From the NCBI GenBank assembly GCA_004764695.1, contig SMSO01000035.1:3849040-3913039 (forward strand): a DNA stretch of 64,000 nucleotides, in the 5' to 3' direction. The notes beneath the pieces were generated by a model, which was not told the origin of the DNA, ran no database searches, and saw only the letters and a program-made list of their open reading frames with translations. Shown in pieces: positions 9,388 through 36,042 of the stretch (position 1 is the first letter of the stretch; every line of letters starts with the position of its first letter). The DNA is from Schizochytrium sp. TIO01 (Eukaryota > Sar > Bigyra > Thraustochytrida > Thraustochytriidae). A program made the translations under genes and the position numbers.

Positions 9388-11394
9388 ATGCAACGTCGAG
9401 ATTTTGTAGCAGAGGCTAGCGCGAAGCTGGATGATGGGCTCCAGAAGTTGTTCAACTTTGCTTCTACATTTGAGCAGCTCATCACATTGGGTCTTGGGAG
9501 TACAATTGACCATGCGGTTGGCGTTCGGCTCGATATAAAATCTGACAAGTTTGAGCAGACGCAGTTAGCGTGGCTGCAAAGAGCCAACGCAATTTTACCA
9601 TACATAACCTTCATCTCATTTACAATTGCCATCCCAGACTCTGTTTACCTGTCAGATGATGGTAAACACAAGATGGCTTGGCAAATTGGGGGCTTCCTTC
9701 TTCAGGTGAGCATTATGGCCAAGCTCTCGAAGAAGTATCCTCAGATGACACGATATCATTATACAGTGGACGACTTTTTGTTTTTTTTCTCTGGTTTGGG
9801 CAAAGTTTTTGTAGAGCATGCCAGCTGGAATTACCGAACCTTTTATTTTCTGATTCTCTGGCATAGAATCATAACCACATGTCTTTTGAAGACGTCTTTC
9901 ACAGCGAGCATTGTTCACATATTAGGTATTGCACTTTTTGCTCTTCGGGACGCAGGCGTTGGTGTGGATGATATCATCGACCTTGGTATCACCTATCTGA
10001 CTCAAGTGTTTGCCTCCATTGTTCTTGTGATCTTACTTATTTATGTTACCCTTCGAGCCAAAATGCTCATCTTTGCCGTGCAATCTGTTGAAGCCAGTAA
10101 GGTGACAAATTTGAGGACTATATTTCAGTTTGTAAGCCATGAATATCGCAACCATTTCTTCGCAGGTTCGCTTGCACTCGACTCGCTTACAAGTAATCAT
10201 TTAATGCCACCCAATGCTCGTGATGATGTCAAAGTTCTTGAGCGAGCACACAAAAATATATCAGCACTCATGGAGAACATTTTACAACTTTCGCGTTTAG
10301 AGGCTAATGGTGGGTCTCTCAAAGGCCAAAGCATCAATTTTTCAGTTTCCTCTGATCTCCTGGCTGAAGTCAGGAGCTTTGCTCAGAGCATGATTGATGC
10401 TAATTTGCTACAGAAACACGTGCAATTCATATATTATGAAGACCCAGCTATTAAGGTCTTGCCGAGTGTGACTGGTTCGTTAGCTCTATTACAACGTGCG
10501 CTAAACAACCTGTTGAGTAACGCTATCAAATTTACACCCAATGATGGACTGGTGCGACTCGTTGTCAACGCTTTCCCAGACTTTCCGAGAAAGAAAGTCC
10601 AGCTTGATATTGTCGTTTCGGATACCGGCAGCGGTATTGCTGAGACTGACCTGGAAGATATTTTCAAGCCTTTCAAACGAAGCCGTACAGGTGACTCGCT
10701 TGACCTGGGGGGCTCAGGTCTTGGCCTCTCCTTTGTGAAACGCATCATAGAGGCCAACGACAATGGCTCAATTGCTGCAGAGTCCACCCTCGGCCACGGA
10801 TCAAATTTTCATGTCAGATTCGACCTTCCATTTGCCTCAATAGAGCCTCAAAATGAGGGAAGCGTAAGTGGAGATTCGCTTTCATCTTCTCAATCTAGCT
10901 CTGACGGTAGCTCTTTTGATATAGCCTCTCCCACACCCCGATTCCGCAGCCGCGTTGGGCCACTTCGGCTCCTTATTGTTGATGATAGTATCACGAATCG
11001 GCTTATGTTACGGAACTTTATTAATCGTCAAGTCAAGAAACTTGCACAGAAGGTTGACATTGTTGAGGCTGCCGATGGCCGCACAGCTATTGATCTTGTT
11101 GAAACCCGCGGCCCGGATAGTTTTGATGCAATTACGATGGATCATTATATGCCTGGCAAATTTGACGGCCTCGATGCTGCTAAAAAAATTCGCGAGTTAG
11201 GATTTACTGGTCCACTAATTGGTGTTACAGGTGAAGAGGATCCCGAAAATATGAATCGCTTTCGGAGGGCGGGCTGTGACGCAATCTGGCGCAAAGGTGG
11301 ACAGTTAGATGCTCTTCTTAAAATGATTGGCATCGACTCGAGTAGAACCTCCCGTCGAACCCGCCAACGCTCGTTAACACCAACTCGTCGGTAG
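9388..11394 (+). CDS. membrane-bound hybrid histidine kinase, copy 1
   Basis: Sensor kinase with an attached receiver, predicted to autophosphorylate on His and pass the phosphate to its own Asp. The 668 residues are laid out as follows. A short cytosolic N-terminus carries the motif TLGLG..ID. About six hydrophobic segments lie between residues 70 and 230, with no large extracellular domain, so the sensor is probably the membrane domain itself. The dimerisation/H-box is VSHEYRNHFF with phosphoacceptor H251. The N-box is NNLLSNAIKF (373-382), followed by DTGSGI (412-417) and GGSGLGL (441-447). After a Ser-rich linker comes a receiver with DD 532-533, phospho-Asp D585 in DHYMPG, T614 and K636. 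All catalytic positions are present. The start is supported because the N-terminus aligns with the neighbouring paralogue at 14668. It is a single exon. The ligand and any phosphotransfer partner are unknown, and no HPt gene is in the window. Confidence 0.93.
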   Translation: MQRRDFVAEASAKLDDGLQKLFNFASTFEQLITLGLGSTIDHAVGVRLDIKSDKFEQTQLAWLQRANAILPYITFISFTIAIPDSVYLSDDGKHKMAWQIGGFLLQVSIMAKLSKKYPQMTRYHYTVDDFLFFFSGLGKVFVEHASWNYRTFYFLILWHRIITTCLLKTSFTASIVHILGIALFALRDAGVGVDDIIDLGITYLTQVFASIVLVILLIYVTLRAKMLIFAVQSVEASKVTNLRTIFQFVSHEYRNHFFAGSLALDSLTSNHLMPPNARDDVKVLERAHKNISALMENILQLSRLEANGGSLKGQSINFSVSSDLLAEVRSFAQSMIDANLLQKHVQFIYYEDPAIKVLPSVTGSLALLQRALNNLLSNAIKFTPNDGLVRLVVNAFPDFPRKKVQLDIVVSDTGSGIAETDLEDIFKPFKRSRTGDSLDLGGSGLGLSFVKRIIEANDNGSIAAESTLGHGSNFHVRFDLPFASIEPQNEGSVSGDSLSSSQSSSDGSSFDIASPTPRFRSRVGPLRLLIVDDSITNRLMLRNFINRQVKKLAQKVDIVEAADGRTAIDLVETRGPDSFDAITMDHYMPGKFDGLDAAKKIRELGFTGPLIGVTGEEDPENMNRFRRAGCDAIWRKGGQLDALLKMIGIDSSRTSRRTRQRSLTPTRR

Positions 11395-12207
11395 ATTCTC
11401 GTGAAAATCGAAGGCCTCATTCTCATACGTTTCCAGGCGCTCCCGAGGTTGTAGCTGTACAAACCTGCATCTTCTTCTTTTTTCCTTGTAGTACATGATG
11501 ATTTCAACGTTAGCCATAGTAGGGTCACCTACCGTATGTGAAGATTATCTAGCCAATGTCTAAATTGTAATATATACCTATCCTTATTGCCTACAACTTT
11601 GATATAAATTTATCCATTAAATTCGCTTTAAAGTGTGCTTTTATGCTTGATTTTGTATTTGTACGCATCATTTACATATCTGTACAGTGCTGCAAGTCTT
11701 GATGATTTCAAAACTTTGGAATGCTGCTTCTGGAGGCATTTACGTACATGCCTAAATCCTTGATATGATCAGGTTTAAGGAATGTCAGCTTTTTAACGTG
11801 TTTCAACATTGAGAAGTAACTATTAGCGAGGATTTCCCCCCAAAAATAAATTTCGAGGTGTACCAGAACAACCATATGACAACGCAAAGCTGAGAGAGAC
11901 TCTGGATCTATATGTTAATAAACTGAAGCAATGATTACAGCTATGAATTGAAACCAATGCGGGGATTAATTACAGATAAGACTTGCAATCAACAGACTAT
12001 CTATACATTGGCCTTAAGCTTAGGACTGGCCTCTGATCATGTAGCTTAGATCATTATAAGCTTCTTTGAACGGGCATAATCGCTGCAATGAAGCGGAGCA
12101 GCCTTTACATATAATCAACAAGGAAACGGCTCCCTGTTTTGGGGCGGAAGGCAGTCAGTCATCTTTCTGATTAGTGCATCTCTGCAATCAGATGTACACA
12201 GATTCAA

Positions 12208-12316
12208 GTGCCATTTGCAATGTTTTGTTTTCTTGTAGTCATTTATTTAACCAAAAGATGAAAGTAGCGTGTTGTGCCATTTGCAGTGTTGTTATTCTTG
12301 CAATCATTTATTTAAC
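12208..12316. repeat. diverged direct duplication of about 44 nt
   Basis: Copies at 12208-12251 and 12274-12316 share GTGCCATTTGCARTGTT, a TTCTTG core and CATTTATTTAAC, with starts 66 nt apart. Confidence 0.75.
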
Positions 12317-13059
12317 TGTTTATGTATATAGCTGTTCTGGATGCACCCCGTGGGCTCAACTGACTCGGCGCGCCGCTTCTCCACACCATTTACGATTTCG
12401 ATTGAAATTCCGAGTAGCAAAGCTTGCTTTGCACCAGTTTTGATTAAAGCATAAGAGCTCCGGTAAAAGTTTTTAATACGCTTCAACGGTGCCTGGTCGC
12501 TGCTTCCTGAAAGCTTTGAAGGGTGTATAATAACGAGATTTTCATGAGTGGCTCTCTTCTATTTAAAGCGAAACCATGTCGAGGGTCAATTTTGTAATCG
12601 TTTTAGCGGCGAAGACGGCCTTCAACATCATCTCGATGAACTTTGTCACAAGAATGTCATCACAGTAAAAAGACCTGCCCAAGATGCCGTACACCTAGGT
12701 CTGAGCATGGTGTCTCAAGTTCTTCAATGCCACAAAGACAAGGTCTGGCACTCACTGCCTGCACGCATAAGCTTGGTGCTACACCCGAGCGATTTTCCCC
12801 AAAACCAGACTTCGGTCTTTCGTCTCGAGCCCCTCGAGCTCAAACGGAACCAGGCTGCCTGAACGAAACTACCCGCCAACCGCAGGCTCGCGAAAGAACT
12901 GGTCGGGCACTCGCTTCGGCTCGCGGCACACCCAGCCATCTGCGTGCTGCCAGGGAAGCTCGGGTGGTCCTGTTGGCGGCAAGGAGGTGCAGTTTGATGG
13001 GAGCAGGAAGCTCTAAACTGAGACCGCACCATTCACTTTCTGCCACCTCGAGCAGAAGC

Positions 13060-13085
13060 TGATTGATTGATTGATTGATTGATTG
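13060..13085. repeat. (GATT)n microsatellite
   Basis: About six GATT units in succession, read directly. Confidence 0.9.
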
Positions 13086-13310
13086 TGCGGAACTGGAGGA
13101 AACTGGGACATGTAAATTGGTTGTCGCCGGTGACCTCCTTGAAGACCTCCCCAAGAAAATACAAGACTCGGCTCCCCGAAAAGAGAGAAGCACGAGTTCA
13201 GAAAAGGGGGTGAAAGCGCGAAGAAGAAGCCTGGTTCTTCGCAAGTCGGTTCATCCCCTCTGCGATCAATCGGAGCCGAAGAAAACGCTCAGGCACGCGT
13301 GATTGACTGA

Positions 13311-13361
13311 CACTCACTCACTCACTCAATCACTCACTCACTCACTCACTCACGCACTCAC
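13311..13361. repeat. (CACT)n microsatellite
   Basis: A tandem CACT series with two interruptions (CAAT, CACG). Confidence 0.9.
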
Positions 13362-13432
13362 CGCATGCGCAGTCGCGCCTAAGGCCTCAGTCAGAGTTGC
13401 CATCGCTCGACTGTGGAATTGCTGATATTTAG

Positions 13433-13464
13433 GTGCTGCTGCTGTTGCTGCTGTTGCTGTTGCT
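13433..13464. repeat. CTG/TTG triplet repeat
   Basis: CTG and TTG triplets alternate. It gives Leu or Ser/Asn runs in the overlapping frames, which I do not consider genes. Confidence 0.8.
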
Positions 13465-14282
13465 TCGATCGATTTCTTCTTCTGGTTCTTCGCGGAGCAT
13501 GACAAGAGGCTGGTTGAAGGCGTTGCAGCAGAGCGATCGAATGCGTGGCCTCTTCGGAGTCGCAGCTCGAAGAATGAAGCAGGTGTCCACCCTCTTAGGC
13601 GCCTGCTTTCGACCTCGGCTCTGGCTTTCGTGGAGCTTGGGATTAACAAGGGAAGCAAGCAACCGCAGAAAGAACAGGTGATCAGATTACCTGTGAGCAA
13701 AGGTTTCCAACGGAGCAGCAGAAGAAAGCCAACACGGAGTGGCGAGAGACGAACGGCACGAGTGAATCAAATCGATGGCTTGGTTGAGTTGCAAATAGTG
13801 AGGATGGCGGACAGGCTTTTTTGGGTGGAAAGGGACGATGGCACGTTGTGAGGTGCGAGCTTACAAGGTATATCATTCACATATATCCTCACGGAATTGA
13901 AACCAAGGACGAACTTCGAGGCGCATTTGTCTCGAAGTCTTTGCATAATTGCTGCTTTTGATGAATTGATTGACAAGTTCCGCTTCTTTTGGAGGAGTTC
14001 ATGATGAAAGATAGATGGGCAAGGGCGTCAACTTTGAAGAAGCATCCGATTTCAAGGGAAACCTCTGCAGTGCAAGGCTTCATTCACCTCGTGAAGTGGA
14101 GGCGACATTGTATTTAAGGTCTATCATCAAACGTGCACGATGGCCACCTGTTCTACAGTTGTTTGTTTGATCGATTTCATGCTAGGTGTCAATTTCTTGA
14201 TGGGAGTTGCATTTGTTACATTTATTATTTATTTAATTAAAATGATGTTTCTCGGAACATAAAACTGTTTAGAATTAAGAAT

Positions 14283-14307
14283 ATTATTATTATTATTATT
14301 ATTATTT
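14283..14307. repeat. (ATT)n microsatellite
   Basis: About eight ATT units, read directly. Confidence 0.9.
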
Positions 14308-14667
14308 AGTTTAAATTAAAAAAATGAGTCGAAAACTGTCCAGCTGCCGTCGGGGACCAATCTTCAATTAAGGCCGCCGACGCCCTCTGGCCGAGCCTCA
14401 ACCTCCTTGCGCGGCTGTGGCTGCTGTGAGGAAAAAGAAGACACTGCTCCTGGCGAAAGACTCGCTCGTTCACTACTCTACCGCTTCTTTGCTCACTAGC
14501 TCGTTGGCAGGCTAGGTAGCTAGAATTGTGCTTTTCGTCTTTAACGGAGAGAGCCATCGCCAAGCGCTCTGCTCAGTTTGTCGATCTCCCATTCTCTTCG
14601 CTGTTGCAGTCTGCACTAGCATTGCTAACCTTGATATCAGGAACACCTAGGCACACATTGTTTCCCA

Positions 14668-16656
14668 ATGATCAAAAGTTTGCGCAAAGCAGGATGCGGC
14701 ATAGACTCTGCGTTAAAATGGATGTTTTCACAAACGGAGCTCGTGGACGAGATCATGACGCTGGGACTCGGACCTCACATCGATAGGCTGCTTGGCCTGC
14801 GACCAGAAGTGGAGAATCCATTGGTTTTTAATGAGAAGAAGATGCAAATATTAGAACTCGGAAATGAATTGCACATCTGGACAATCATTTGCACAATGCT
14901 TGTCTGGATGCCGGAAATGGCTTACGTTTGGAACATGCCTCTCTGGACGCTCTTTTTTGTCTTCACAATTGGGCTTTTGCAACAGTATGCGCTGGTCATG
15001 CTTGCCAAGAGATACCCGCTAGCACTGCGCTTTTACTTTGGGGCTCCTGACATTCTCCTGACCATCTCCGCATGGCAGACCATTTATGTGGATAACACGG
15101 GCTGGTCGCTATCCTCATTCTACGCTTTGGTGTGCTGGCACCGAATCATTACCTGCTGTCTACTGAAGGAGTCATTTTCTTCAGGGATGGTGCACCTCCT
15201 GCTCATCTGCTACTTCTGGGCCACGGACACAGCACTTTCGTCGGAGGACCTTATGTCAATGACGGCGACATCTTTGATCTACTCAACAGCTGCAGTGTTG
15301 CTTCTTAGTTTGCTGATCTTCTCTACGATCCGTGCAAAGATCCTGTACTGCGAACTGGCCGCAGCTGAGGCTGCGAAGGTGGATCACTTGAGAACTGTGT
15401 TCCATTTTGTGAGTCATGAATATCGAAATCATTTCTTTGCAGGCACTCTCGCACTTGACTCTTTGCACAGCAACCAAGCTCTTTCGATGAACGCTCAGCG
15501 TGATATCGAGGTGCTTGACCGCGCACATCGCAATATCTCCGCCTTGATGGAAAATGTTTTACAAATGTCACGACTTGACACTTCTGAGAAAAATATTTGG
15601 CAAGGAGAAGCAGCGCCGTTTAGCCTTTCAGGCGACCTTGTCAAAATGATTCGGAACTATGGGGAAGCTGTGTCAGGTGTACGTTTTGGTCATAAACCTG
15701 GACTCCCTGCTACTATGTGGGGGGCTTCAGATCATGTTCATTTCCAACTTGAAGAGTCTGAAACTGCAAAAACCCTTCCTGCTGTTTTTGGATGTGCATC
15801 TTTACTTTTTCAAGCAGCGAATAATCTTGTCAGTAACGCCATCAAATTCACGCCTCCTGGAGGCCTAGTGACGGTATTCGTAGATGCAGACCCTTTTGCA
15901 GCACCAGGTAAAGCACGTATTTCTATCAAAGTGTCCGATACAGGGCGTGGAATTTCGGAAGAATGTAAATCTCGAATTTTTGAACCTTTCGTGCAGTCGA
16001 ATGTTCATGACTCATTGGATCTCGGGGGGTCAGGACTGGGACTTTCGTTTACCAAAAAAATCGTTGAGGCCTATGAGGGAGGGCGCATTTCTCTGGACTC
16101 TCAAGTCAATGTTGGTAGTACGTTTGAAATCTCTCTTTTACTACCATTCCATGTTCATCCAGACTCATATTCCAGCTTATTGAACAATGATTCAGAAAAT
16201 CTCACTCTCAAGCAGCAGGAAGTCGTTTCTGTGCTTATTGTTGATGATAGTATGGTCAATCGGTTGATGCTTCAGAATTATATTACACGCAAGCTTTTGC
16301 AGGAAGGGCTTCGAATCGAAATTTCTGATGCATCCGATGGGCCTTCAGCGGTGGCTGTTGTTGCGCGCAACGGGGTTAACGCTTTTCATGCAATCACAAT
16401 GGACTTTCACATGCCAGGCGAATTTAATGGCGTGGAAGCCACACGGCGCATTCGAGCACTTGGCTTCAAAGGACACATTATTGGTGTTACTGGAGAAGAG
16501 GACCCTGATCAAATGCAACTGATGCTTGATGGAGGTTGTGATGCTGTTTGGCGCAAAGGCGGTAGTCTGGAGCAGCTTCTTCGAGAACTCAAGCTTCACT
16601 CTACAGAAGCTCGTGAGCGTCTCCTAAGAAGACTTCCGTTTTCTTCAACGCATTAG
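14668..16656 (+). CDS. membrane-bound hybrid histidine kinase, copy 2
   Basis: Paralogue of the kinase at 9388 with the same domain order over 662 residues. The N-terminal motif is TLGLGPHIDRLLGL, followed by about six hydrophobic segments (70-225) that include the shared WHRIIT.CLLK.SF block. The H-box is VSHEYRNHFFAG with H250, the N-box is NNLVSNAIKF (385-394), then DTGRGI (424-429) and GGSGLGL (453-459). The receiver has DD 526-527, phospho-Asp D579 in DFHMPG, T608 and K630. By hand alignment 46 of 65 residues around the H-box match copy 1, so the pair arose by tandem duplication, followed by divergence of the membrane part. Copy 2 carries an extra segment of about 25 residues before the N-box region (about 335-362). 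It is a single exon and no key residue is lost. Both copies are expected to be active, perhaps with different inputs. Confidence 0.93.
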   Translation: MIKSLRKAGCGIDSALKWMFSQTELVDEIMTLGLGPHIDRLLGLRPEVENPLVFNEKKMQILELGNELHIWTIICTMLVWMPEMAYVWNMPLWTLFFVFTIGLLQQYALVMLAKRYPLALRFYFGAPDILLTISAWQTIYVDNTGWSLSSFYALVCWHRIITCCLLKESFSSGMVHLLLICYFWATDTALSSEDLMSMTATSLIYSTAAVLLLSLLIFSTIRAKILYCELAAAEAAKVDHLRTVFHFVSHEYRNHFFAGTLALDSLHSNQALSMNAQRDIEVLDRAHRNISALMENVLQMSRLDTSEKNIWQGEAAPFSLSGDLVKMIRNYGEAVSGVRFGHKPGLPATMWGASDHVHFQLEESETAKTLPAVFGCASLLFQAANNLVSNAIKFTPPGGLVTVFVDADPFAAPGKARISIKVSDTGRGISEECKSRIFEPFVQSNVHDSLDLGGSGLGLSFTKKIVEAYEGGRISLDSQVNVGSTFEISLLLPFHVHPDSYSSLLNNDSENLTLKQQEVVSVLIVDDSMVNRLMLQNYITRKLLQEGLRIEISDASDGPSAVAVVARNGVNAFHAITMDFHMPGEFNGVEATRRIRALGFKGHIIGVTGEEDPDQMQLMLDGGCDAVWRKGGSLEQLLRELKLHSTEARERLLRRLPFSSTH

Positions 16657-25466: not shown

Positions 25467-27654
25467 CGTTCCTAACGCAAACTCCTCCTCGACAGAATGT
25501 CTTACGCGACACGCTCAAGATAGCTAGCTAGCTGATTCTGGTTTTGCTCGAGCCCACCATTTATTATTCCTCCAAGACTTTACATACCTACACTACACTA
25601 ATTAATTAATTAACTAATTAACTAATTAACTAACTAACTAACTAACTAATTAACTAACTAACTGACTAATTAACTAATTAACTAATTAACTAATTAACTA
25701 ATTAACTAAGTAACTAAGTAACTAAGTAAGTAAGTAAGTAAGTAAGTAAGTATATGAAAGGGTATCTACTATCAGCAATAGGGACCAAATCGCATTGCAT
25801 TGCATTGCATCGCACTGCATTAATCGCATTGCTCAGCGCCGACCTTCAACAAACAAACAGACAAACAATCAAACGCGAGGAAACCCTTTGCTGCGAGCTC
25901 CTCGTGCCCAGGACAAAGGGAGGAACCTCCGGCCAGCCTCAGCTGGTCGTCCTCGATCGAATTTGCTTGCTTGGTCGAATTGAACTGGTCTGCAGTTCAC
26001 AGTTCTCAGTTCACGAGCGCTCGAAAGAAATCGCAGTCAATCATTCAACATATATATAATCCCAAACAAATCTCAACTTCAATCGTTCATTCATTCATTC
26101 GTTCATGCGATTCATTGATTGTTTGTTTGATTGCTTGCTTGCTGCCTCACATTTGACACCAGTTTCGCAGAAATAACCTCGCAGTGGCGACATCTTGAAG
26201 GTACCGTAGGTGCACAAGCACAATCAGACCAGGAACTGGTGCAGAGAGTTTTGTCTGCGTAGAACGAAGTTGAGCTCAACTGGAGACCACGAAAACCATC
26301 TCAGAACTCATCACTCATCGTCATCCATTCCATCGATCCATCGATTCTTCGTCACTGATTCCATGCCCGCACTCGTAGCGTAACCCCTAGCCAGAACCCT
26401 ACTGAGAACTACCGAAATCCTCGAAGAATTGCTGGCAACAGAGGTAGGGTACTTTGCGAGTCCTCGTCCAGGACCCGCCATGTCAAATTGAAGACTGCTG
26501 AGCGCTAAGCGCCATATTGAGCGCAGGAAAGGGTGAGGAAGAGGTCTGGAATACACCCCAGTGCACGAAAGCTTTTGTAAGGGAGGAGAATAGAGGAGAC
26601 GAAGGAGGAGGGACAAGAGGGATTAAAATACGTGTCTTAAAAGGGGGAGATGGGCGACGGAGAACCCGAATAAAATACACCTCGAAAGACAAAGCACATG
26701 CATCCTCGTGGACCTTCCTTCGTGACCGTTTCCTTGAATGCTGTCATCGAGGGTCTGCGAGGTGGACGTAGGTGAAGAAGTCAACGGTATGGGCGCCAGT
26801 CAGAATGGAGGGTGGAGGTATGAGCTATATCGAAAATATGCCTCAAGCAGATGTCGATGGTATCGTCGAATTTGCACATGTTTTACCTGTAGGAGAGACG
26901 ATCAAAATGTACCGAGACATGAAACTGGAAAATTGTCATGAGGTTCGCCCCGCTAAATCAAGTATTTGAGTGTATCGCAGAGAAGGGGCGTCGTCGATGG
27001 TGTGCGACTCGTGAACATGATTCATTGCTTGAATGTGCGTGGTATTGATCGGTAAACCACGATTTTGTGGTCTTTTCGTTCGCCTACAACTTACGACTTA
27101 CGAGTGTAATGTTTACTTTTGTTCTTTTTTGTTGTTCTTTTTAACTAATGTTCATTTCAAGAAAATAAAAAACAAAAAACAAAAAGCAGAAAAAAGTTGC
27201 AAGTGCAAGATTACTTATTATCCTCTATTGTGAAAGCAATCGATCGTCTGAGCAGCCGATCTCTGAAGGCAGTTCCGATCGGCAGGCCGCAGGGACGAGC
27301 TGATCAGGGCGCCGGGGCTGTGAGAAGGCATTAGCCGGCGCCTCGAGGATTCTTACTATTAGTAGAAGCGACCTCAAGACGAGCTCTCGCACGAACGACT
27401 GCGTGGTCGCCGCGTTCGGAATCGTGATCCTTTATCTATTGGTATGAGATTTGCAAGATATCCTACTTCGCTTCTATCAACGAGTATTGCTGCCCACCGC
27501 AGGTGTGGGTGTGGGATTACACCCGTGTACAGATATCTTCGCTAGGAAGGACTCGTTAGATAAACTTCATTTACCTTTTTGAAGAACTCTTTAGAAATAT
27601 ATCTCAACGTTTCACTTTGTCACGAGTAGATCACTCTCAGCCAACTTCATCATC
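25467..27654. other. divergent intergenic region, lyase (-) and DENN gene (+)
   Basis: About 2.2 kb that must contain the promoters of both flanking genes. It has the ACTAATTA array beside the lyase start and smaller TTCATTCA repeats near 26090. One short frame, ATG 26805 to 26969 (54 codons), has a non-repetitive mixed composition, but nothing else supports it as a gene. Confidence 0.55.
25596..25754. repeat. ACTA/ATTA then GTAA tandem array
   Basis: About 160 nt of ACTAATTA-family tetramers that drift through ACTAAGTA into pure GTAA. It lies 130 nt upstream of the lyase start codon, so probably in its promoter. Confidence 0.9.
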
Positions 27655-30600
27655 ATGTCGGCTGGAGGCCTCTTTGAATGCTTCTTAGTAGCACAGATTG
27701 CAGAAGGAAATGATGCTCAGACGTTGGATGATGGCAACAATAAACCACAAAGACAAGCTGTTGTAGGATGGAAATATCCTCAAGATCAAAATACTGTTGA
27801 AGGCTTGCATGAAGGCATTGCAGGCTTGCCCGTGTTCTGTTTTCCAAGACTGAGTCTGGAAAGACGAAGGCAATACCTTAAACCATACACGTACGTATTT
27901 GCGCTGACTCTTCAAAATGGCGAGTACCTATACGGGTTTTGTCGCAAATTTTTACCACCTGGAAGATTTCCTAGGCGTGCAGATGTGGAGGAAAGGTTTC
28001 CTGAAGTACTGTGTATCGTGTCCAAGCGTTTTGAAGTTGACCTCTTTCTACGAGTCCTCGACTGTGTGGAGGCCCGCATCATGCTAGACCCTGCAGCCAG
28101 CATTGGCTTTCTCGATGCCTTAGCAAAATTGCAACCTGTGCCCACACCAGGTTCCGCTTTTCGAATTAAAAGTCCCATGTGTGGTATTGTCTGCGAATAC
28201 AAGTTTTCTCGGCCACGCGTTTATGAGAAAGCGCATATCAATCTTGTCTTCAAGCATTTATCGCCACGCATGATTCATTTGTTGGTAGCGTTCATCATGA
28301 ACGAAAATCGTATTATTTTTGTCAGTGATAGCGAGACTAAGATCTCACTAGTCATCCACGGCCTAGTCGCGCTTATCTACCCTTTTGTTTGGCAGCATAT
28401 GTTTGTGCCTTTGATGCCTGAGCATCTATTTGACTACCTTGGGGCCCCCTCGCCTTACTTAGTAGGTGTACTGACCGCACTTCGCCCACGTCTGAAGAAC
28501 CTGCCATTAGGGAACGTAATTATTGCTGACCTTGACAAAAACCAGATCGAGACCAACGAGCCCCTCGTTCCGTTTGGCGAAATCAATTCAAATGACAATA
28601 AATTCATTGCGCGCTCGCGGAGTGAGGAGGACCTCCGTATTTCATCTATTTTCGCAGGTGAAATTAACGCTCTCTGGTCTCGTGGGTCTGGTCAATTTCG
28701 CCAAGTCAATGAACTTTCGCTTCGTACAACCTGGGTTAGCTTTAACCTCTATGTTTTCGGATGGGCTGATCGTTATGTTGATGCACACTCAGGAGAAATT
28801 CAAAAAGAGGCCTTCGCGGCTAGTATGGCAGATCCTCTTTTACAGCGCTTTTGCCGCAACTTTGTTCATACCCAGATGTTTAACCATTTCGTTGAACGCC
28901 TTGTTGACCACCTACACCGCAAGCGCCATGGACGTCAGAGAAATTCAATGGCCCAAACGCAAACTACAACTGGTGGCTTTCGACGCGATGGTGCTATGCT
29001 GGACTTGCAACGGCAGGAGGACACCCTTTTCTTCGAAGCCCGAGATCAGCTACACGGAGACTTCACATGGGCAGATGTAAAACGTGCTTTTAAGTCTACA
29101 CCCGTTCGGATTTGCCATACTCCATCAGGAGCTGTAAATGAGGCGCTTGAGGCGATTCCTACGTCAATCCGGACCAATCCCAAGTTTGACCCGGACACCG
29201 ATGAACTATTTCAGAAGCTCGCTAGGCGCTCCTACGACGCCATGCTGGCTGTAGCGATCAATAAAGCTATTTGGCGCCGTGTGTCACAGACTACCGCAAA
29301 GAACTGGCGCAGTGGCTACAATGCCATGCTACTATTACGCTTTATGCTTTCCGCAGGTTCAGAAATTGTTCTCGCTTCTGCTTTTCGCCACATTGATAAT
29401 ATTGCACGTCTGTTACGAACTGGTGGGGAGTTAAATGGCTCGCGGAGCGAAGAAAGTGTTAAGCAGCTTCAGCGTGCCGCGGCAACTGTGTACCACGAGC
29501 TCATTGACCGTCGCACTCTCGCGTGGGAACGATCGCATGAGGGTGGCCATCGCCTCTTTTTGGCAAGCAAGCGTAAGGAGATTGATAAGGTGACTGCACA
29601 TCTCCGCTGTAGGTCTACACCAATGCCTCGCTTTAAAGATCTACATGAAAGCAACTTTGATCCGTGTGTGCCACTTAAAGCGCCACTTAAAGCTCATCAG
29701 CTGGAACAAATTCCAATCGCGCCTCGTAAAACTGAGGATCTTCTTGGATTGAAGTCCTATGCGCGTGACACAGCTTCCTCGCTTACGCCCCCCCCTCCCC
29801 CCCCACCACCTCACCATTCGCCGCCAGTGAAATATCAACAGCCATTTTCCAACACCATGTTGCAACCCACGATCGTCAGCGCCCCTCCACCGCCGCCTCC
29901 TCCACCGCCGCCTCCTCCTCCGCCGCCCCCAAAGACGACATCTTCAACGTTACATCTAAACCAAACAACCTCCGCAGGGCCACCCATGTCCGCAAAGACA
30001 TTTACAGCTCCTCCTCCGCCCCCCCCTCCCCCTCCATCATTGTTGCGCGCATCTTTACCAGCAGCCCTGCCCAAAAGACCAGCACAGTCTGGCCTTTCTT
30101 CATCCTCGGAAGCGGCTTCGCCGCCTCCACCACCACCGCCACCCAAACGATCTTCACTTGAAGCTAGTTCGGAACAATCTGAAAAGGCTGCTTCAATGAA
30201 TCGTCCTTCCACTGCCAAATCTGGGCCACCTCCTCCACCACCGCCTCGAGCATTTGAGCTTGAATCAGAAGAAGGTTCTGCTCAATCTTTTAACAGCCGA
30301 TCCTCGCCTCCACACAGAGCACCTCCTCACCGAGAGCCTTCTGATCACTCAGGGTCTTCACCTGCTCCAAATTCCCCAATTTCTCCTGATGCATCCCCAC
30401 CCAAGTCAGCTTCAGAGTCTGTAAACGAGGGGTGGAGTTTTGACACGCCTAGTGTAGAAACTCATACGTCCTCGGCTCGCCGTGGATCAAATAAAGCACG
30501 CCCGCCAGCACCCCAGAAACAGAATTTGGGAAAGATCACAACAAATCGCCCGCCACCTCCGACCAAACCTGCAACGAGCGACCAAAAGCAACCATCACAG

Positions 30601-31236
30601 CAAGACGAGAAACGTCGGCCTTCAGCTTCAGCAATATCTACATCACAAAAGGTGACTGCTCAGAGCTACCAGAATGTTTCTCTTGGTGAGACCAATTCAC
30701 CGGTATCATCTCTATTGCCTAAGGAGTCAACAGGAGCTGAGGTTGAACCATCAAAGTCACCGTCCGCAGAAGCTTCTACAGGAGCCGAGACTGATTCATT
30801 AAAGTCACCATCCGTGACCAGTCCTGCTCGGCCCCCATCAAGACCTCATAGCTCAAGAATGGATGTTGCTGCTTCCCAATTTGATGTGAAGGCCGCTGTG
30901 GAACAAAGAGAGTCCGGTTTGAAACAAATCCAGAATGAGAGAAACCCATCACATCCAGCAACTCCTCCTCTTCCTTCTCATCGCTCATTATCTTCACCTT
31001 CAACATCTTTGGCCACCGATGGCTCTACTGACGGTATAGATGGTATTAAAAAGACTTCTTCGGTGGGATCCTCGGGAAGCTCTCGTCCAAGTAGCTCTCG
31101 CATCGCAGACTTGGCTTCTCGGTTTGACAAGACTCTCAGTAAAAGCGCTGAGGATAGAAGCAATAATACCAAGACTCAAGATGAGAAAAAGCCATCAATT
31201 GCAGAACTTCGTAGCAAATTTGAACAGGGTCAGTAA
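27655..31236 (+). CDS. DENN domain protein with ENTH-like domain and proline-rich tail
   Basis: Predicted Rab guanine-nucleotide exchange factor in membrane traffic (1193 residues, one exon). A tripartite DENN module fills the N-terminus: uDENN-like about 1-140 (LPVFCFPRL; FALTLQNGEYLYGFCRKF), core DENN about 170-310 (HLLVAFIMNENRIIFVS; LVALIYPFVWQHMFVPLMP; LFDYLGAPSPYLVG) and dDENN about 355-425. Residues about 515-625 fit the ENTH/ANTH helical pattern (IWRRVSQTTAKNWRSGYNAM, LLLRFML.AGSE, later LIDRRTLAWER), a fold that binds phosphoinositides and clathrin adaptors. The rest is disordered, with runs of up to about 15 prolines (710-890) that could bind profilin, SH3 or EVH1 domains. Three short I/M-A-x-L-x-S-x-F repeats lie near the C-terminus. 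The DENN call is firm; the ENTH call rests on pattern only. Confidence 0.9.
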   Translation: MSAGGLFECFLVAQIAEGNDAQTLDDGNNKPQRQAVVGWKYPQDQNTVEGLHEGIAGLPVFCFPRLSLERRRQYLKPYTYVFALTLQNGEYLYGFCRKFLPPGRFPRRADVEERFPEVLCIVSKRFEVDLFLRVLDCVEARIMLDPAASIGFLDALAKLQPVPTPGSAFRIKSPMCGIVCEYKFSRPRVYEKAHINLVFKHLSPRMIHLLVAFIMNENRIIFVSDSETKISLVIHGLVALIYPFVWQHMFVPLMPEHLFDYLGAPSPYLVGVLTALRPRLKNLPLGNVIIADLDKNQIETNEPLVPFGEINSNDNKFIARSRSEEDLRISSIFAGEINALWSRGSGQFRQVNELSLRTTWVSFNLYVFGWADRYVDAHSGEIQKEAFAASMADPLLQRFCRNFVHTQMFNHFVERLVDHLHRKRHGRQRNSMAQTQTTTGGFRRDGAMLDLQRQEDTLFFEARDQLHGDFTWADVKRAFKSTPVRICHTPSGAVNEALEAIPTSIRTNPKFDPDTDELFQKLARRSYDAMLAVAINKAIWRRVSQTTAKNWRSGYNAMLLLRFMLSAGSEIVLASAFRHIDNIARLLRTGGELNGSRSEESVKQLQRAAATVYHELIDRRTLAWERSHEGGHRLFLASKRKEIDKVTAHLRCRSTPMPRFKDLHESNFDPCVPLKAPLKAHQLEQIPIAPRKTEDLLGLKSYARDTASSLTPPPPPPPPHHSPPVKYQQPFSNTMLQPTIVSAPPPPPPPPPPPPPPPPKTTSSTLHLNQTTSAGPPMSAKTFTAPPPPPPPPPSLLRASLPAALPKRPAQSGLSSSSEAASPPPPPPPPKRSSLEASSEQSEKAASMNRPSTAKSGPPPPPPPRAFELESEEGSAQSFNSRSSPPHRAPPHREPSDHSGSSPAPNSPISPDASPPKSASESVNEGWSFDTPSVETHTSSARRGSNKARPPAPQKQNLGKITTNRPPPPTKPATSDQKQPSQQDEKRRPSASAISTSQKVTAQSYQNVSLGETNSPVSSLLPKESTGAEVEPSKSPSAEASTGAETDSLKSPSVTSPARPPSRPHSSRMDVAASQFDVKAAVEQRESGLKQIQNERNPSHPATPPLPSHRSLSSPSTSLATDGSTDGIDGIKKTSSVGSSGSSRPSSSRIADLASRFDKTLSKSAEDRSNNTKTQDEKKPSIAELRSKFEQGQ
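29788..30250 (+). repeat. proline-codon (CCN) tracts within the DENN gene
   Basis: Five CCN runs, at about 29788, 29883, 30008, 30120 and 30227, encode the poly-Pro blocks. Third bases vary (CCC, CCT, CCA, CCG), which indicates selection on the peptide rather than recent slippage. Confidence 0.85.
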
Positions 31237-31606: not shown

Positions 31607-34600
31607 TTATATGAGGAAACGGTCATCTACCAATGTTTTTTGCGAGAGATTTGTATTTCCGAATAGCTCCCGAGTTATGACAAAGATGCGGTCAAGCATG
31701 AATGCAAAGAAGATCGAGAGCACAGTACTATCCCACCATATGTCAAAAGTTGTAATGCAGAGCATATTAAACAAAATGAGATTCCAAGTCTGCCCATACA
31801 AAAGAACACGATCATATTGATAGAATGGGTCAGGGAAGAATATGTTATCCTTGGAATTCATCATTTCAGGAGGCGTATGTAAAAATCGATGCAAAAAGGT
31901 TTGGTCCCGGTGTTGAATCGGAAATTCTGAAGAGTCTTGATTTACAAAACTTCGCAGAAATGCGTTGAGCTTACGCGAAGCTCGTACAAGTTTTTCTGCA
32001 ACTGGGCGGTCATTCTTTCTTCGCAAAACTCTGAGAAGGAAAGACCCAGTGTCGCTGTGAGCACCTTGGATCTCTTCAGTCATCATGGTGCTAAAGATGT
32101 GATTATATTGACGTTTCCATTCACCTGTTACGTAAATTTCAAAGGCTTGCAACCCCTTTTCTGGGCACCCTGGAAGCCCTCGGTCCGTCGTAAGGCCCTC
32201 TTCTTCCTGACGGAGCTGGCGCGAAATTTCCAACATACTGCAGTCAGCAAATTCATGTTGCGACCGGCAATGCAAATAAAAGCCATGGTACTCCTCATCA
32301 AGCACGAAAATTGACACTTTGGCAATTGTACAAAGATCAATCAACGAGTGGGTTGGGGGCTCGGTGATGTAGCGGTCTTGGATTGCCCATTTGAAGAAAA
32401 TTTGTACACTTGTGATGACGATATACCAAAAACACGTGTTGAAAAACCGTAAGACAGGGTTTAGTGGACCTTCGGAGAGGTCTTGGAAGTCAGGAGTTGG
32501 TGTTGCAAGATACTGTAAATCTCCAGCGATCAAGATTGTTGATAAGAGAAGCAAAGCGAATTCGAGATTATACCTTCGCAAACGCTGTAATTCATTCCAT
32601 TCATTGGCCATAAAGATTGTTCGCCACACACTAATTGGAGCAAATTTAGTTTTTGTTCCATCACCACGTTTACTTTGGATACGGCCACGAGGTTTCTCCC
32701 AATCTAGGAAGAATATGTCAACGTTGGACTGCACTATTACAATCTCAATCATGCGAGCAAGCTGTCCAAAAAAGCATAGTTGCAAAACAAGAATGAAAGG
32801 GTAATAGTCATCTTCTGACCCATATTCTTCCCTGTCTACCGGTAAAAGCAAGTGAACTCTATCCTGCATCTTGAAGAAAATAAAAAAATACGCAGAGAAT
32901 GCAAACAGAAACCAGAAGAACACTGTGGAAAAGGTTGATAACATGTACGAGATACCACGGAGAATAAACCCAAAATTAACAGGTGCATCGCCGGGCAAAC
33001 GTGAATTGCGTCTTGACCAGTTGTAGAGGCGAAGAAGGCCAAAAAGTCCTACAATCGTCATTGTAATTCCAAAGAAAGCCGATGTACTTTGCCAAAATCC
33101 ATCAAAGTTTTCCGTATATTCAACTGTGAAAACGAGCTCTACGTAGGTAGTCTCTTCAGGCGGATTACCTTCCTCGTCGACACCATTTCTGTAAAAGTCG
33201 GATACGAGTCGCTCCTCATACAGGATTTCCAGCACTGGGGGATAGATTTTATTAGTAACGATCTCTTGAACAGTGGTAGTGAGTCTGATAGATTTGGCAT
33301 AGCGAATAACTGAGGGTTCGTCCGTTGCTGATACTTTTGACGAAATTTGATCATAGAAGAAGAAACGGCGAGTAAGCATGTCATCAGCCTCATCTTCAAC
33401 AGCTGTGTTTTCGTTGGGAAACGCCTCATCTTCAACTAGATTGAGGTTTCTAACTGGCACTGGGTACAAGCGCCCGCCATTCGCGTAATCAACGAGGTAT
33501 AGGTCATAGAATTCCGGTTCAGGGAAAGAGTTCATAAGGTTATACAAATTGCAGGAGTAAGTACGCTCGTAGCCGTACCCGAATTGTCTCCAGGTTGGAA
33601 CCTGGTTCTCGGTCGGCATGCAGTACTCGAATTCCGTAGTGACGTTTGACCAGCCCAGAAATTCTCCTGCCAAGCTGAAACGGGCCATCACAAACTGCAT
33701 GTAGTCATACGTGCCGGATTCTTGTTCCATATCAAAAGAGAACTCTAAGTCAATGCCTGTGTCTGCAAGCACAGTAGGCGCTAGATCCTCATACCGGAGC
33801 CATGGTGTGAGAAGTCGCCAGTCCCAAGTAACATCGTTCCACTGTGCACGATTTGTGTTGATGTCATCAATTAATTCGCATGCAGGAACGTCATTGTTGT
33901 ACTGCTGCAAAACGCACAGATTGGCTAGTGCTTGACATGCCTGAACACCATGGGCGTCGCGAAGATAGCGACATTTGGTACCAGCAAGCGGGAAATAGTG
34001 ATTGAAAATGACAGAATTCCTGATCGTATAGCTTGTATAGCCTTCACCACTACTTGACGATAATAACTGGCGCCGCCCCCCACGGAGAGTAGCACTACTT
34101 GAAATTGATGATGGTGCAGAAGAGGGTTGTTCATCGCTTTCCTGCGTTCTTAGCAGACGTCGACTTTCCGATGGAGAGCTTGTGGGCACAACATGAGTGT
34201 ACTCGATCTCTGCATAACGCTGCAAATTAACGTATGCAACTTCTGTTGTGAGAACACAGGTAATACCGCTACCAACACCCTCAATACCAACCTGGGTCCA
34301 TGTAGGCGAATTTTCCGAAGGCAATGCACATACACAACGATTGTTGTAGACGACCATAGCTGGGTGCGGGCAAGCCTGACAAATGTAGGAATCTTCCTCA
34401 ACAATATCTGGATCATCCTCCACCCCATCCTCTGCACGTGCCTCGAGGTAAAGTGTGCGTAATATACTCCCTGCTGGACATGGTTCGCAATGTTTATATG
34501 CTAAAGGTTCCCCGTTTAGGTCAAGCTCCCGAAGAACATGTGAAGAGTTGGTGCACTCACACATTTTTGTATCAGAATTGTAAGAGATATCAGTTCCCTC

Positions 34601-35095
34601 GTAGGTCCCGTTCGGATTTCCGCAAGCCATGCATGCATCGTTTGCTACAGTCGATGCTTGAGGGCACTCCAAGCACCGAAATGCATCGCACCAGTAGTTA
34701 CTGACAGCGAGCGTGGTCTCGCAAGCATCAGAAGTGAAATAATCGTCCATATTAGTGATCCAGCCAGGCGCACATCGGCAACCCACCGACGTTGTATAAT
34801 CTCTTGACGCATAGGGTACAATGATATCTTGATAATCTGGAATACGAGCTGTCATGCCAGATGTTGTCAGCGGAATATTTGGAGGACTAGGGCATGACAG
34901 ACATCTGAAACTGGCAATATCAAGGTACTCATCGTCTGCGCAGTCTGTAACAGAGATTGCTTTCTCTGCTGCTTTCGAGATATGTGCAGAGCTCAATGTG
35001 ACTAGTGCTAATGCAAAGGTAAAAAGTTTGCACCATTCCCTCTTGGTTATGTCGCTCACTAAGTCTGCCTTGGTCTGCATTAGCTTTGTCATCAT
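31607..35095 (-). CDS. TMEM67: meckelin, ciliary transition-zone membrane protein
   Basis: Homologue of MKS3/TMEM67, a transition-zone protein that helps gate entry of membrane proteins into cilia. The 1162 residues are somewhat longer than animal meckelin (about 995). Order: signal-anchor-like hydrophobic stretch (about 21-38); cysteine-rich ectodomain with CxxC pairs (about 50-285); a Ser-rich low-complexity insert (about 303-350); a beta-rich ectodomain; then about six or seven hydrophobic segments (670-690, 712-742, 763-790, 843-858, 884-903, 1100-1140). Family blocks are DWEKPRG (798-804), WRTIFMANEWNELQ (824-837) and HGFYLHCRSQHEFADCSM (937-954). Two adjacent ATGs give starts one codon apart. 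The gene is a single exon. Its presence implies that this organism builds a motile or sensory flagellum at some stage. Confidence 0.94.
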   Translation of the reverse strand: MMTKLMQTKADLVSDITKREWCKLFTFALALVTLSSAHISKAAEKAISVTDCADDEYLDIASFRCLSCPSPPNIPLTTSGMTARIPDYQDIIVPYASRDYTTSVGCRCAPGWITNMDDYFTSDACETTLAVSNYWCDAFRCLECPQASTVANDACMACGNPNGTYEGTDISYNSDTKMCECTNSSHVLRELDLNGEPLAYKHCEPCPAGSILRTLYLEARAEDGVEDDPDIVEEDSYICQACPHPAMVVYNNRCVCALPSENSPTWTQVGIEGVGSGITCVLTTEVAYVNLQRYAEIEYTHVVPTSSPSESRRLLRTQESDEQPSSAPSSISSSATLRGGRRQLLSSSSGEGYTSYTIRNSVIFNHYFPLAGTKCRYLRDAHGVQACQALANLCVLQQYNNDVPACELIDDINTNRAQWNDVTWDWRLLTPWLRYEDLAPTVLADTGIDLEFSFDMEQESGTYDYMQFVMARFSLAGEFLGWSNVTTEFEYCMPTENQVPTWRQFGYGYERTYSCNLYNLMNSFPEPEFYDLYLVDYANGGRLYPVPVRNLNLVEDEAFPNENTAVEDEADDMLTRRFFFYDQISSKVSATDEPSVIRYAKSIRLTTTVQEIVTNKIYPPVLEILYEERLVSDFYRNGVDEEGNPPEETTYVELVFTVEYTENFDGFWQSTSAFFGITMTIVGLFGLLRLYNWSRRNSRLPGDAPVNFGFILRGISYMLSTFSTVFFWFLFAFSAYFFIFFKMQDRVHLLLPVDREEYGSEDDYYPFILVLQLCFFGQLARMIEIVIVQSNVDIFFLDWEKPRGRIQSKRGDGTKTKFAPISVWRTIFMANEWNELQRLRRYNLEFALLLLSTILIAGDLQYLATPTPDFQDLSEGPLNPVLRFFNTCFWYIVITSVQIFFKWAIQDRYITEPPTHSLIDLCTIAKVSIFVLDEEYHGFYLHCRSQHEFADCSMLEISRQLRQEEEGLTTDRGLPGCPEKGLQAFEIYVTGEWKRQYNHIFSTMMTEEIQGAHSDTGSFLLRVLRRKNDRPVAEKLVRASRKLNAFLRSFVNQDSSEFPIQHRDQTFLHRFLHTPPEMMNSKDNIFFPDPFYQYDRVLLYGQTWNLILFNMLCITTFDIWWDSTVLSIFFAFMLDRIFVITRELFGNTNLSQKTLVDDRFLI

Positions 35096-36042
35096 GGGCG
35101 ATAAACGGAGTGTCTAGCTGCTTGTTTGGTTTGCGTACAAAACCAAGAAACCTGCAGCTCTCCTCTGTGGTTTGATTCAATTACCTTGCAAGAAGCTTTG
35201 CTGTGTCTCTTGCAAGGTAGCAAGCTCTCCTCTCCGTTCACCCTTTGCCTCTCCCAAATCCTCACGTGATGGTTTGGTGTTGCGCTCGTTGCTGTGGTCA
35301 AAAGCGTGTCTGTCTATGCCGTTTCTTATATCCCACGCAACTGCTCGCACAGCTCTTCGTGCAAGGCTTCAACTCACCCCTTGCAGTACGTTTACTCAGC
35401 TCCGTGTTGGCAGCTTTGCACAAGAGTGTTGCTAGCGTCTTGGTGCCCTGCAGGATGCGACAGCTGGGCGTTAGCCCTTGTTGGTCTTGAAGTTGATGAT
35501 TTACCCTGAGAAACGTTGTGGCCCAGGTCCTCTTTAATAATTCTCCTTAGCATTCGTTCAATTTAAACAGTTTGCTATCCCTCTTTTTCCACCTTCCTTT
35601 TCTTGGTAGAACTCACTACTTAAGCTATCAAAAGTACATATTTTCCCTTCACTAAAACATATTCATGCATGCATCCAAGCCCTTAATTCTCAGTCAAACA
35701 CCTTCTCCTCCCAGACAATCACTTGAGCTGAGCCCTATCTCTCAGTACCTGTTTTCTTCTCTAAACCGAACGCGAACCATGCAGAATAATATCCCAACGC
35801 AAGCGCAAGAAATACTGCGAATACTGCCGAACGGTCAAGTGCACAACCCTTTCTTACTTGCGTTCCTCATTAGAATTTATGGAACTAATAGAACATTTGG
35901 AAAATAGTGCCATGTTTTGATGATAGATAAATGAAATCTGAGATGATAGGGCCAACTTCGAAACCAAATTTGCTTTCTCCTGAAGGTTGATCTGCGAAGC
36001 CGAGCTTCATCTGTGCCCCGAGCGCCAGCTTATCTCGCTACG
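35096..36042. other. divergent promoter region, meckelin (-) and MED30-like (+)
   Basis: About 0.95 kb between two start codons pointing away from each other. It holds both promoters and leaders. No supported gene lies inside, and the frames of 70-90 codons look random. Confidence 0.6.

Follow-up and report, generated by a model that had tools for sequence, protein, structure and literature searches.

The analysed stretch of DNA, hereafter called the window, comprises 64,000 nucleotides of contig SMSO01000035.1 of Schizochytrium sp. TIO01 and carries two neighbouring genes that encode hybrid histidine kinases, P0001 (copy 1) and P0002 (copy 2). Both genes are complete single open frames on the same strand, and they are separated by 3,273 bases in which the longest wholly contained stop-to-stop frame, among those of at least 90 amino acids listed, specifies 141 amino acids. 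The deduced proteins share one layout, in which a membrane module is followed by the HisKA, HATPase_c and receiver domains. The positions of the genes and of their catalytic domains are as follows:

9388..11394, plus strand: hybrid histidine kinase copy 1 (P0001, 668 amino acids and stop), from open reading frame, Pfam and own-genome search
14668..16656, plus strand: hybrid histidine kinase copy 2 (P0002, 662 amino acids and stop), from open reading frame, Pfam and own-genome search
10114..10305, plus strand: HisKA of copy 1, residues 243-306, with H-box HEYRNHFF and His251 at 10138 (Pfam PF00512, 8.1e-4, under cut-off)
15394..15582, plus strand: HisKA of copy 2, residues 243-305, with H-box HEYRNHFF and His250 at 15415 (Pfam PF00512, 0.025, under cut-off)
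10486..10827, plus strand: HATPase_c of copy 1, residues 367-480 (Pfam PF02518, 6.4e-22)
15799..16140, plus strand: HATPase_c of copy 2, residues 378-491 (Pfam PF02518, 6.3e-23)
10972..11328, plus strand: receiver of copy 1, residues 529-647, with Asp585 at 11140 and Lys636-Gly (Pfam PF00072, 2.6e-13)
16231..16587, plus strand: receiver of copy 2, residues 522-640, with Asp579 at 16402 and Lys630-Gly (Pfam PF00072, 1e-11)

A check of the individual residues revealed that both copies retain the H-box histidine, the N-box and two G-boxes, and that both receivers retain the acidic pair as well as the aspartate, threonine and lysine residues. No PAS or HAMP linker domain was listed by Pfam between the membrane module and the DHp segment of either copy. 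A preliminary description of the locus had named two complete kinase-receiver proteins, and the coordinates, the single frames, the Pfam domains and the catalytic residues all agree with this assignment. Judged by these features, both copies are hybrid histidine kinases with an ordinary kinase machinery, and both are probably active.

Copy 1 was searched in six frames against the own genome (64.06 Mb, 37 contigs), and copy 2 was the leading match (4.3e-147). The copies are 40% identical across 667 aligned columns, and the proposed tandem duplication is supported. The segments are conserved to different degrees, with 17/65 identical positions in the N-terminal lead, 49/164 in the membrane part, 50/75 in the DHp segment, 64/125 in the ATPase and 61/123 in the receiver, and with 66/229 for the module as a whole. 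At fourfold degenerate sites of shared residues 30 of 120 positions were identical, which is about the level of chance and indicates that the silent sites are saturated. Codon agreement over 648 codons amounted to 327 at the first, 410 at the second and 207 at the third position. Since the first and second positions agree above the third and the fourfold sites agree at about chance, both reading frames have been maintained for a long time. According to this codon evidence, the pair is an old tandem duplicate in which both reading frames are conserved.

The further suggestion that the duplication was followed by a change of input is not supported as stated, since a common input fits as well as a changed one when the silent sites are saturated and the densest conserved block of the membrane part is shared by both copies. 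It is common for the sensor part of such proteins to evolve more rapidly than the catalytic part, and a divergence of the membrane parts beyond this ordinary fast evolution of sensor domains is not supported. The codon and silent-site data on their own do not tell whether the inputs of the two copies differ.

The membrane module and searches for its relatives

The N-terminal module of the pair and the two sequence motifs within it are located as follows:

9388..10080, plus strand: N-terminal module of copy 1, residues 1-231, a cytoplasmic lead and probably six helices (from four peaks of hydropathy and the alignment with copy 2; unmatched in Pfam)
14668..15357, plus strand: N-terminal module of copy 2, residues 1-230, a cytoplasmic lead and probably six helices (helices 1, 2, 4, 5 and 6 from hydropathy, helix 3 from a low-confidence model)
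9484..9510, plus strand: TLGLG..ID motif of copy 1, residues 33-41 (from the sequence; G, L and D recur in P0003, the third kinase)
14758..14784, plus strand: TLGLG..ID motif of copy 2, residues 31-39 (from the sequence)
9859..9900, plus strand: WHRIIT.CLLK.SF block of copy 1, residues 158-171, in predicted helix 4 (from the sequence; R, L, S and F also in P0003)
15136..15177, plus strand: WHRIIT.CLLK.SF block of copy 2, residues 157-170 (from the sequence)

Both motifs were thus recovered in both copies, at residues 33/31 and 158/157, as had been described before. The WHRIIT.CLLK.SF block is identical at 12 of its 14 positions; when the columns of the module were shuffled 20,000 times, this degree of conservation was equalled in 24 cases. 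The best stretch of nine columns is identical at eight of them (equalled in 622/20,000 shuffles).

In copy 2, helices 1, 2, 4, 5 and 6 passed the hydropathy cut-off, and fewer peaks were obtained for copy 1 (68-86, 161-179, 175-193 and 204-222). A structure model of copy 2, which is of low confidence, places helices at residues 51-86, 92-115, 126-140, 148-165, 170-187 and 203-253, the last of which runs as one helix into the DHp segment; helix 3 comprises 15 residues in this model and is otherwise supported by the alignment. The outside loops do not exceed 15 residues in either copy when the helix ends are set by hand, which supports the earlier statement that no extracellular domain is present, as far as a large one is concerned. 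With these helix ends, the three inner segments that follow helix 2 hold 7 lysine and arginine residues in each copy, against 3 on the outside in copy 1 and 0 in copy 2, and the corresponding numbers for P0003 are 7 and 1. As to the six-helix membrane sensor of the preliminary description, the alignment, the charges and the low-confidence model make this helix number plausible, whereas hydropathy yields five helices in copy 2 and a smaller number in copy 1. The likeliest, albeit unproven, reading of sequence and model is a bundle of six helices with the two ends on the inner side.

The N-terminal part of neither copy matched Pfam at E values up to 10, and this includes the profiles of the MASE families, a name that denotes integral membrane sensor domains. 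The ETR1_N profile likewise gave no match in the pair, and the same Pfam library detected ETR1_N in two other kinases of the genome that served as positive controls. Among 25 NCBIfam models listed, the best stretch of the MASE3 kinase model fell within the kinase part. A PDB sequence search with the module and a plasmid search with the module of copy 2 produced no match. With two short peptide patterns, 105 candidate stretches were collected from viral contigs and 114 from GTDB contigs, none of which was confirmed by tblastn. A profile of the module was run on 398 genomes from a single bacterial phylum, and seven of them had a match at E values of 0.1 or below; the best value, 0.003 per genome, is about what chance would produce across that many genomes. 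A further search of two genomes was empty, a result that has no weight without a known positive. Two of the seven weak matches were read by eye and rejected as unrelated to the module, L189 being a phosphatidyltransferase-like protein and L191 an RND transporter. The collections searched with the module consist of prokaryotes, viruses and plasmids, and absence from them says little about other eukaryotes.

The earlier statement that the module cannot be assigned to a named sensor family was thus upheld by the Pfam, PDB, plasmid, viral, GTDB and 398-genome searches. As far as these comparisons reach, the input module is unassigned, having matched no sensor family among those searched, and the kinase part is ordinary. 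Among the papers listed, no published description of these kinases was found by title or by the opening of the abstract; the survey of Kabbara 2019, which is cited in a passage of PMC7700396, may name them.

Related kinases and candidate relay partners in the genome

Behind copy 2, the next matches of copy 1 in the own genome were a kinase on contig C13 (1.2e-33, 31% identity), the third kinase P0003 (5.3e-33, 33%) and a kinase on contig C31 (7.9e-31, 33%). For query residues before position 227 of copy 1, copy 2 was the sole match besides the own locus. P0003 is located on the same contig as the pair:

G000:C34:3475070-3477382: third kinase P0003, 771 amino acids, 0.38 Mb from the pair

Pfam reported the HATPase_c and receiver domains in P0003 (HisKA not being reported), and the H-box of this protein reads HEYRNHFF. 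P0003 shares the G, L and D residues of TLGLG..ID and the Arg, Leu, Ser and Phe residues of the helix-4 block, and it contains an additional N-terminal hydrophobic stretch and a longer linker ahead of the H-box. Fourteen alignment columns are invariant across copy 1, copy 2 and P0003, including G, L and D in the first and R, S and F in the second of the two motifs. The likeness of the P0003 module to the pair was equalled in 4/1000 single-sequence shuffles with copy 2, in 21/1000 with copy 1 and in 1/150 shuffles with a profile, and hhalign assigned a probability of 2.6%; own-genome searches with the module of the pair or of P0003 did not retrieve the other at E values up to 10. By its module alone, P0003 shows a marginal likeness to the pair; it is regarded as kin in view of the colinearity of the proteins and of the H-box common to their kinase halves.

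A degenerate DNA pattern for HEYRN-x-F matched the genome four times, in both copies, P0003 and the C13 kinase, and a reversed control pattern had no match. The C13 kinase is encoded by an open reading frame of 409 amino acids without the module, upstream of which lies an open reading frame in another frame that is PAS-like by eye. In a tree of 22 of the 24 chosen kinase cores, ten of them from this genome (the H-box pattern excluded L015 and L004), the four HEYRN kinases were placed on one side of a branch with support of 100/98, and the two copies appeared as sisters with 92/91, which is below the mark for strong support. On the sequence evidence, the four proteins are a kinase clade marked by the H-box HEYRN(H/F)FF. 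The genome contains at least 27 HATPase_c matches in total, and not all of these need be kinases. Two further hybrid kinases were found to carry ETR1_N, namely L022:283-2439 on contig C31 (1.4e-16) and L004:673-2529 on contig C24 (5.9e-14), and ethylene-receptor homologues in Labyrinthulomycetes are mentioned in a passage of PMC6944256.

Scans with the kinase core yielded 79 loci out of 120 pattern stretches in GTDB and 74 loci out of 242 stretches in the viral collection, in both cases with 21-43% identity in the best segment. The N-terminal parts of the open reading frames at 13 of the 79 GTDB loci and 8 of the 74 viral loci, inspected by eye, are those of hybrid kinases with varied inputs; L094 appears to have several membrane helices ahead of its kinase. 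Among the collected loci the sequence HEYRN is confined to the four own kinases and a single occurrence in L102, where it lies downstream of the kinase match. With respect to a bacterial or viral origin, no donor was identified among the kinase-core loci inspected.

Potential partners in a phosphorelay are encoded in the same genome, which contains at least 18 receiver matches and one HPt match over the cut-off (C24:326104). The receiver on contig C36 (L018:184-2166, receiver at G000:C36:4469354) is fused to an HMG box and may constitute an unusual putative output regulator. In a receiver tree, the HMG-box receiver joined the C13 kinase (89/94) within a group that includes P0001, P0002 and P0003 (82/90). 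The residue following the conserved lysine is Gly (four receivers) or Asn (the HMG-box receiver) in all five members of this group and Pro in the other ten of ten. The Lys-Gly/Asn ending is likely to be a shared derived trait, and it makes the HMG-box receiver the best candidate for an output, as a pointer to such a pairing and not as proof of it.

Proposed signal perception within the membrane

The reading that we tentatively prefer, with a confidence that falls slightly short of even, is that the paralogous and probably active hybrid kinases belong to a eukaryotic phosphorelay in which a helix bundle senses the input from within the membrane. A stimulus within the membrane would shift this bundle, probably of six helices and devoid of an extracellular domain, and the last helix, lacking a recognised PAS or HAMP linker, would pass the shift straight on to the coiled coil that the DHp segments of a dimer form. 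The shift of the bundle would then alter the autophosphorylation of His251 or His250, and the phosphate would move from the histidine to the aspartate of the own receiver, to an HPt protein and finally to response regulators, among which the HMG-box-receiver protein is the best candidate. Of this scheme, the sequence itself shows the order of the domains, the catalytic residues, the duplication, the common H-box and the presence of an HPt gene, whereas we infer the dimer, the topology, the helix coupling and the route of the relay.

The nearest model for such a mode of perception is provided by CqsS. This receptor kinase has six helices, short loops and a lipophilic ligand, and its helix bundle is able to drive a cyclase, as described in part of PMC4821796. 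In CqsS and LqsS of Vibrio and Legionella a six-helix short-loop module is joined to a histidine kinase, a layout that is predicted for the pair, and CqsS is also a hybrid kinase (passages of PMC4821796 and PMC8895600). These proteins are bacterial, whereas the pair is distinguished by the H-box HEYRN(H/F)FF and the Lys-Gly receiver ending, and its six helices are unproven. By analogy, an intramembrane sensor that works like CqsS, with no kinship to CqsS implied, is the best reading of the module; its input would most likely be a lipophilic molecule or a state of the bilayer, as with CqsS, although this is a guess.

Several points weigh against an intramembrane sensor in a phosphorelay. The interpretation rests on sequence and predicted structure, and the comparison with CqsS on its described layout. 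The HisKA domain stays below the Pfam cut-off in both copies (8.1e-4 and 0.025). Helix 3 is under the hydropathy cut-off in both copies, and a bundle of five helices is possible; the model of copy 2 is poor (pLDDT 46.6, pTM 0.40) and was built on three sequences, and the N-terminal lead of the pair contains 8 lysine and arginine residues versus 9 and 10 aspartate and glutamate residues, so that it is no marker of the inside. With respect to the relay, the second HPt match is weak (E 0.44), and the numbers of HPt and receiver matches are lower bounds. The receiver tree comprises 15 of 23 receivers, eight having been lost to the cropping rule, and none of its branches is strongly supported. In the core tree, P0003 and the C13 kinase form long branches that may have been joined falsely.

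Among the alternatives, it is somewhat unlikely that the module is a divergent representative of an established sensor family (MASE, 7TMR, CqsS-like or ETR1-like) that lies beyond the reach of shallow profiles. All comparisons are shallow with three sequences only, and the layout resembles that of MASE types and also that which part of PMC4821796 describes for CqsS types. MASE domains, such as MASE1 in a passage of PMC8895600, are membrane-embedded inputs without an extracellular domain, whereas the module of the pair has no Pfam match at E values up to 10 in a library that detected ETR1_N in two other kinases. Furthermore, 0/114 GTDB and 0/105 viral stretches were confirmed by tblastn, and the profile search of 398 genomes had matches in seven genomes at E values of 0.1 or below, with a best value of 0.003, of which the two open reading frames that were read are unrelated by eye. 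The ethylene receptors (ETR1_N, PF25487) are eukaryotic hybrid kinases with an intramembrane input like the pair, but they have three helices and form a recognised family, whereas the pair does not match ETR1_N.

The six-helix anchors of adenylyl cyclases agree with the predicted module of the pair in helix number and differ by their catalytic domain; lipids are reported to modulate cyclase membrane domains, and six-helix anchors have been proposed as lipid receptors, according to part of PMC12414865. Module queries against the own genome at E values up to 10 found no cyclase, although at least 20 cyclase-domain matches exist there. An open frame of 1172 amino acids (L197/L198, G000:C24:2669413-2671986) contains two cyclase catalytic domains, which we take to be the layout of animal-type membrane adenylyl cyclases.

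A module that responds to a physical membrane property (temperature, fluidity or tension) and not to a ligand appears rather unlikely. The lack of a large outside loop and the helix-rich module would suit such a function, for which the cold sensors DesK and Hik33 provide an analogy, but the polar WHR...K.SF block, which is conserved and located at a predicted helix, suggests a specific site over bulk sensing. The transcript of an Aurantiochytrium histidine kinase was more than fourfold increased in the stationary phase in the cold, but slightly decreased in the log phase, and the authors doubt an immediate role; the relevant part of PMC4585886 leaves the kinase unspecified, and the host genus may differ. 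It is improbable that the module is a mere anchor or receives its input from a partner membrane protein, its drift then reflecting weak constraint, since the identity of 66/229 between the copies, the marginal likeness to P0003 and the failure of module queries to link P0003 with the pair at E values up to 10 are opposed by a conserved block equalled in just 24/20,000 shuffles and by 14 columns that are invariant in three kinases, the G, L and D and the R, S and F residues of the motifs being among them.

Two further open frames of the window were noted. The region 31610-35113 on the minus strand is one open frame encoding a Meckelin/TMEM67-like protein (PF09773, E 5.1e-178), presumably a protein of the ciliary transition zone. 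The region 27595-31233 on the plus strand is a single frame with uDENN and DENN domains and a dDENN match under the cut-off, followed by ENTH (5e-9) and, by eye, a proline-rich tail; we know of no other protein with this combination.

To our knowledge, the signal has been identified for few histidine kinases of eukaryotes. Ethylene, cytokinin and osmosensor kinase types are reviewed in part of PMC6944256. An extension of the preferred reading of an intramembrane sensor, which we consider very improbable in its entirety, would see the pair and P0003 as a eukaryote-specific family of intramembrane receptors and as a new kinase-coupled helix-bundle class. Such receptors would read a lipid or a self-made lipophilic signal and feed a dedicated branch from Lys-Gly receivers to the HMG-box regulator, as a protist counterpart of CAI-1 sensing of independent origin. 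If the host is an oil-rich protist, a membrane-embedded sensor of lipid type with a candidate output that can be named could be put to a direct test and would add a type of sensor.

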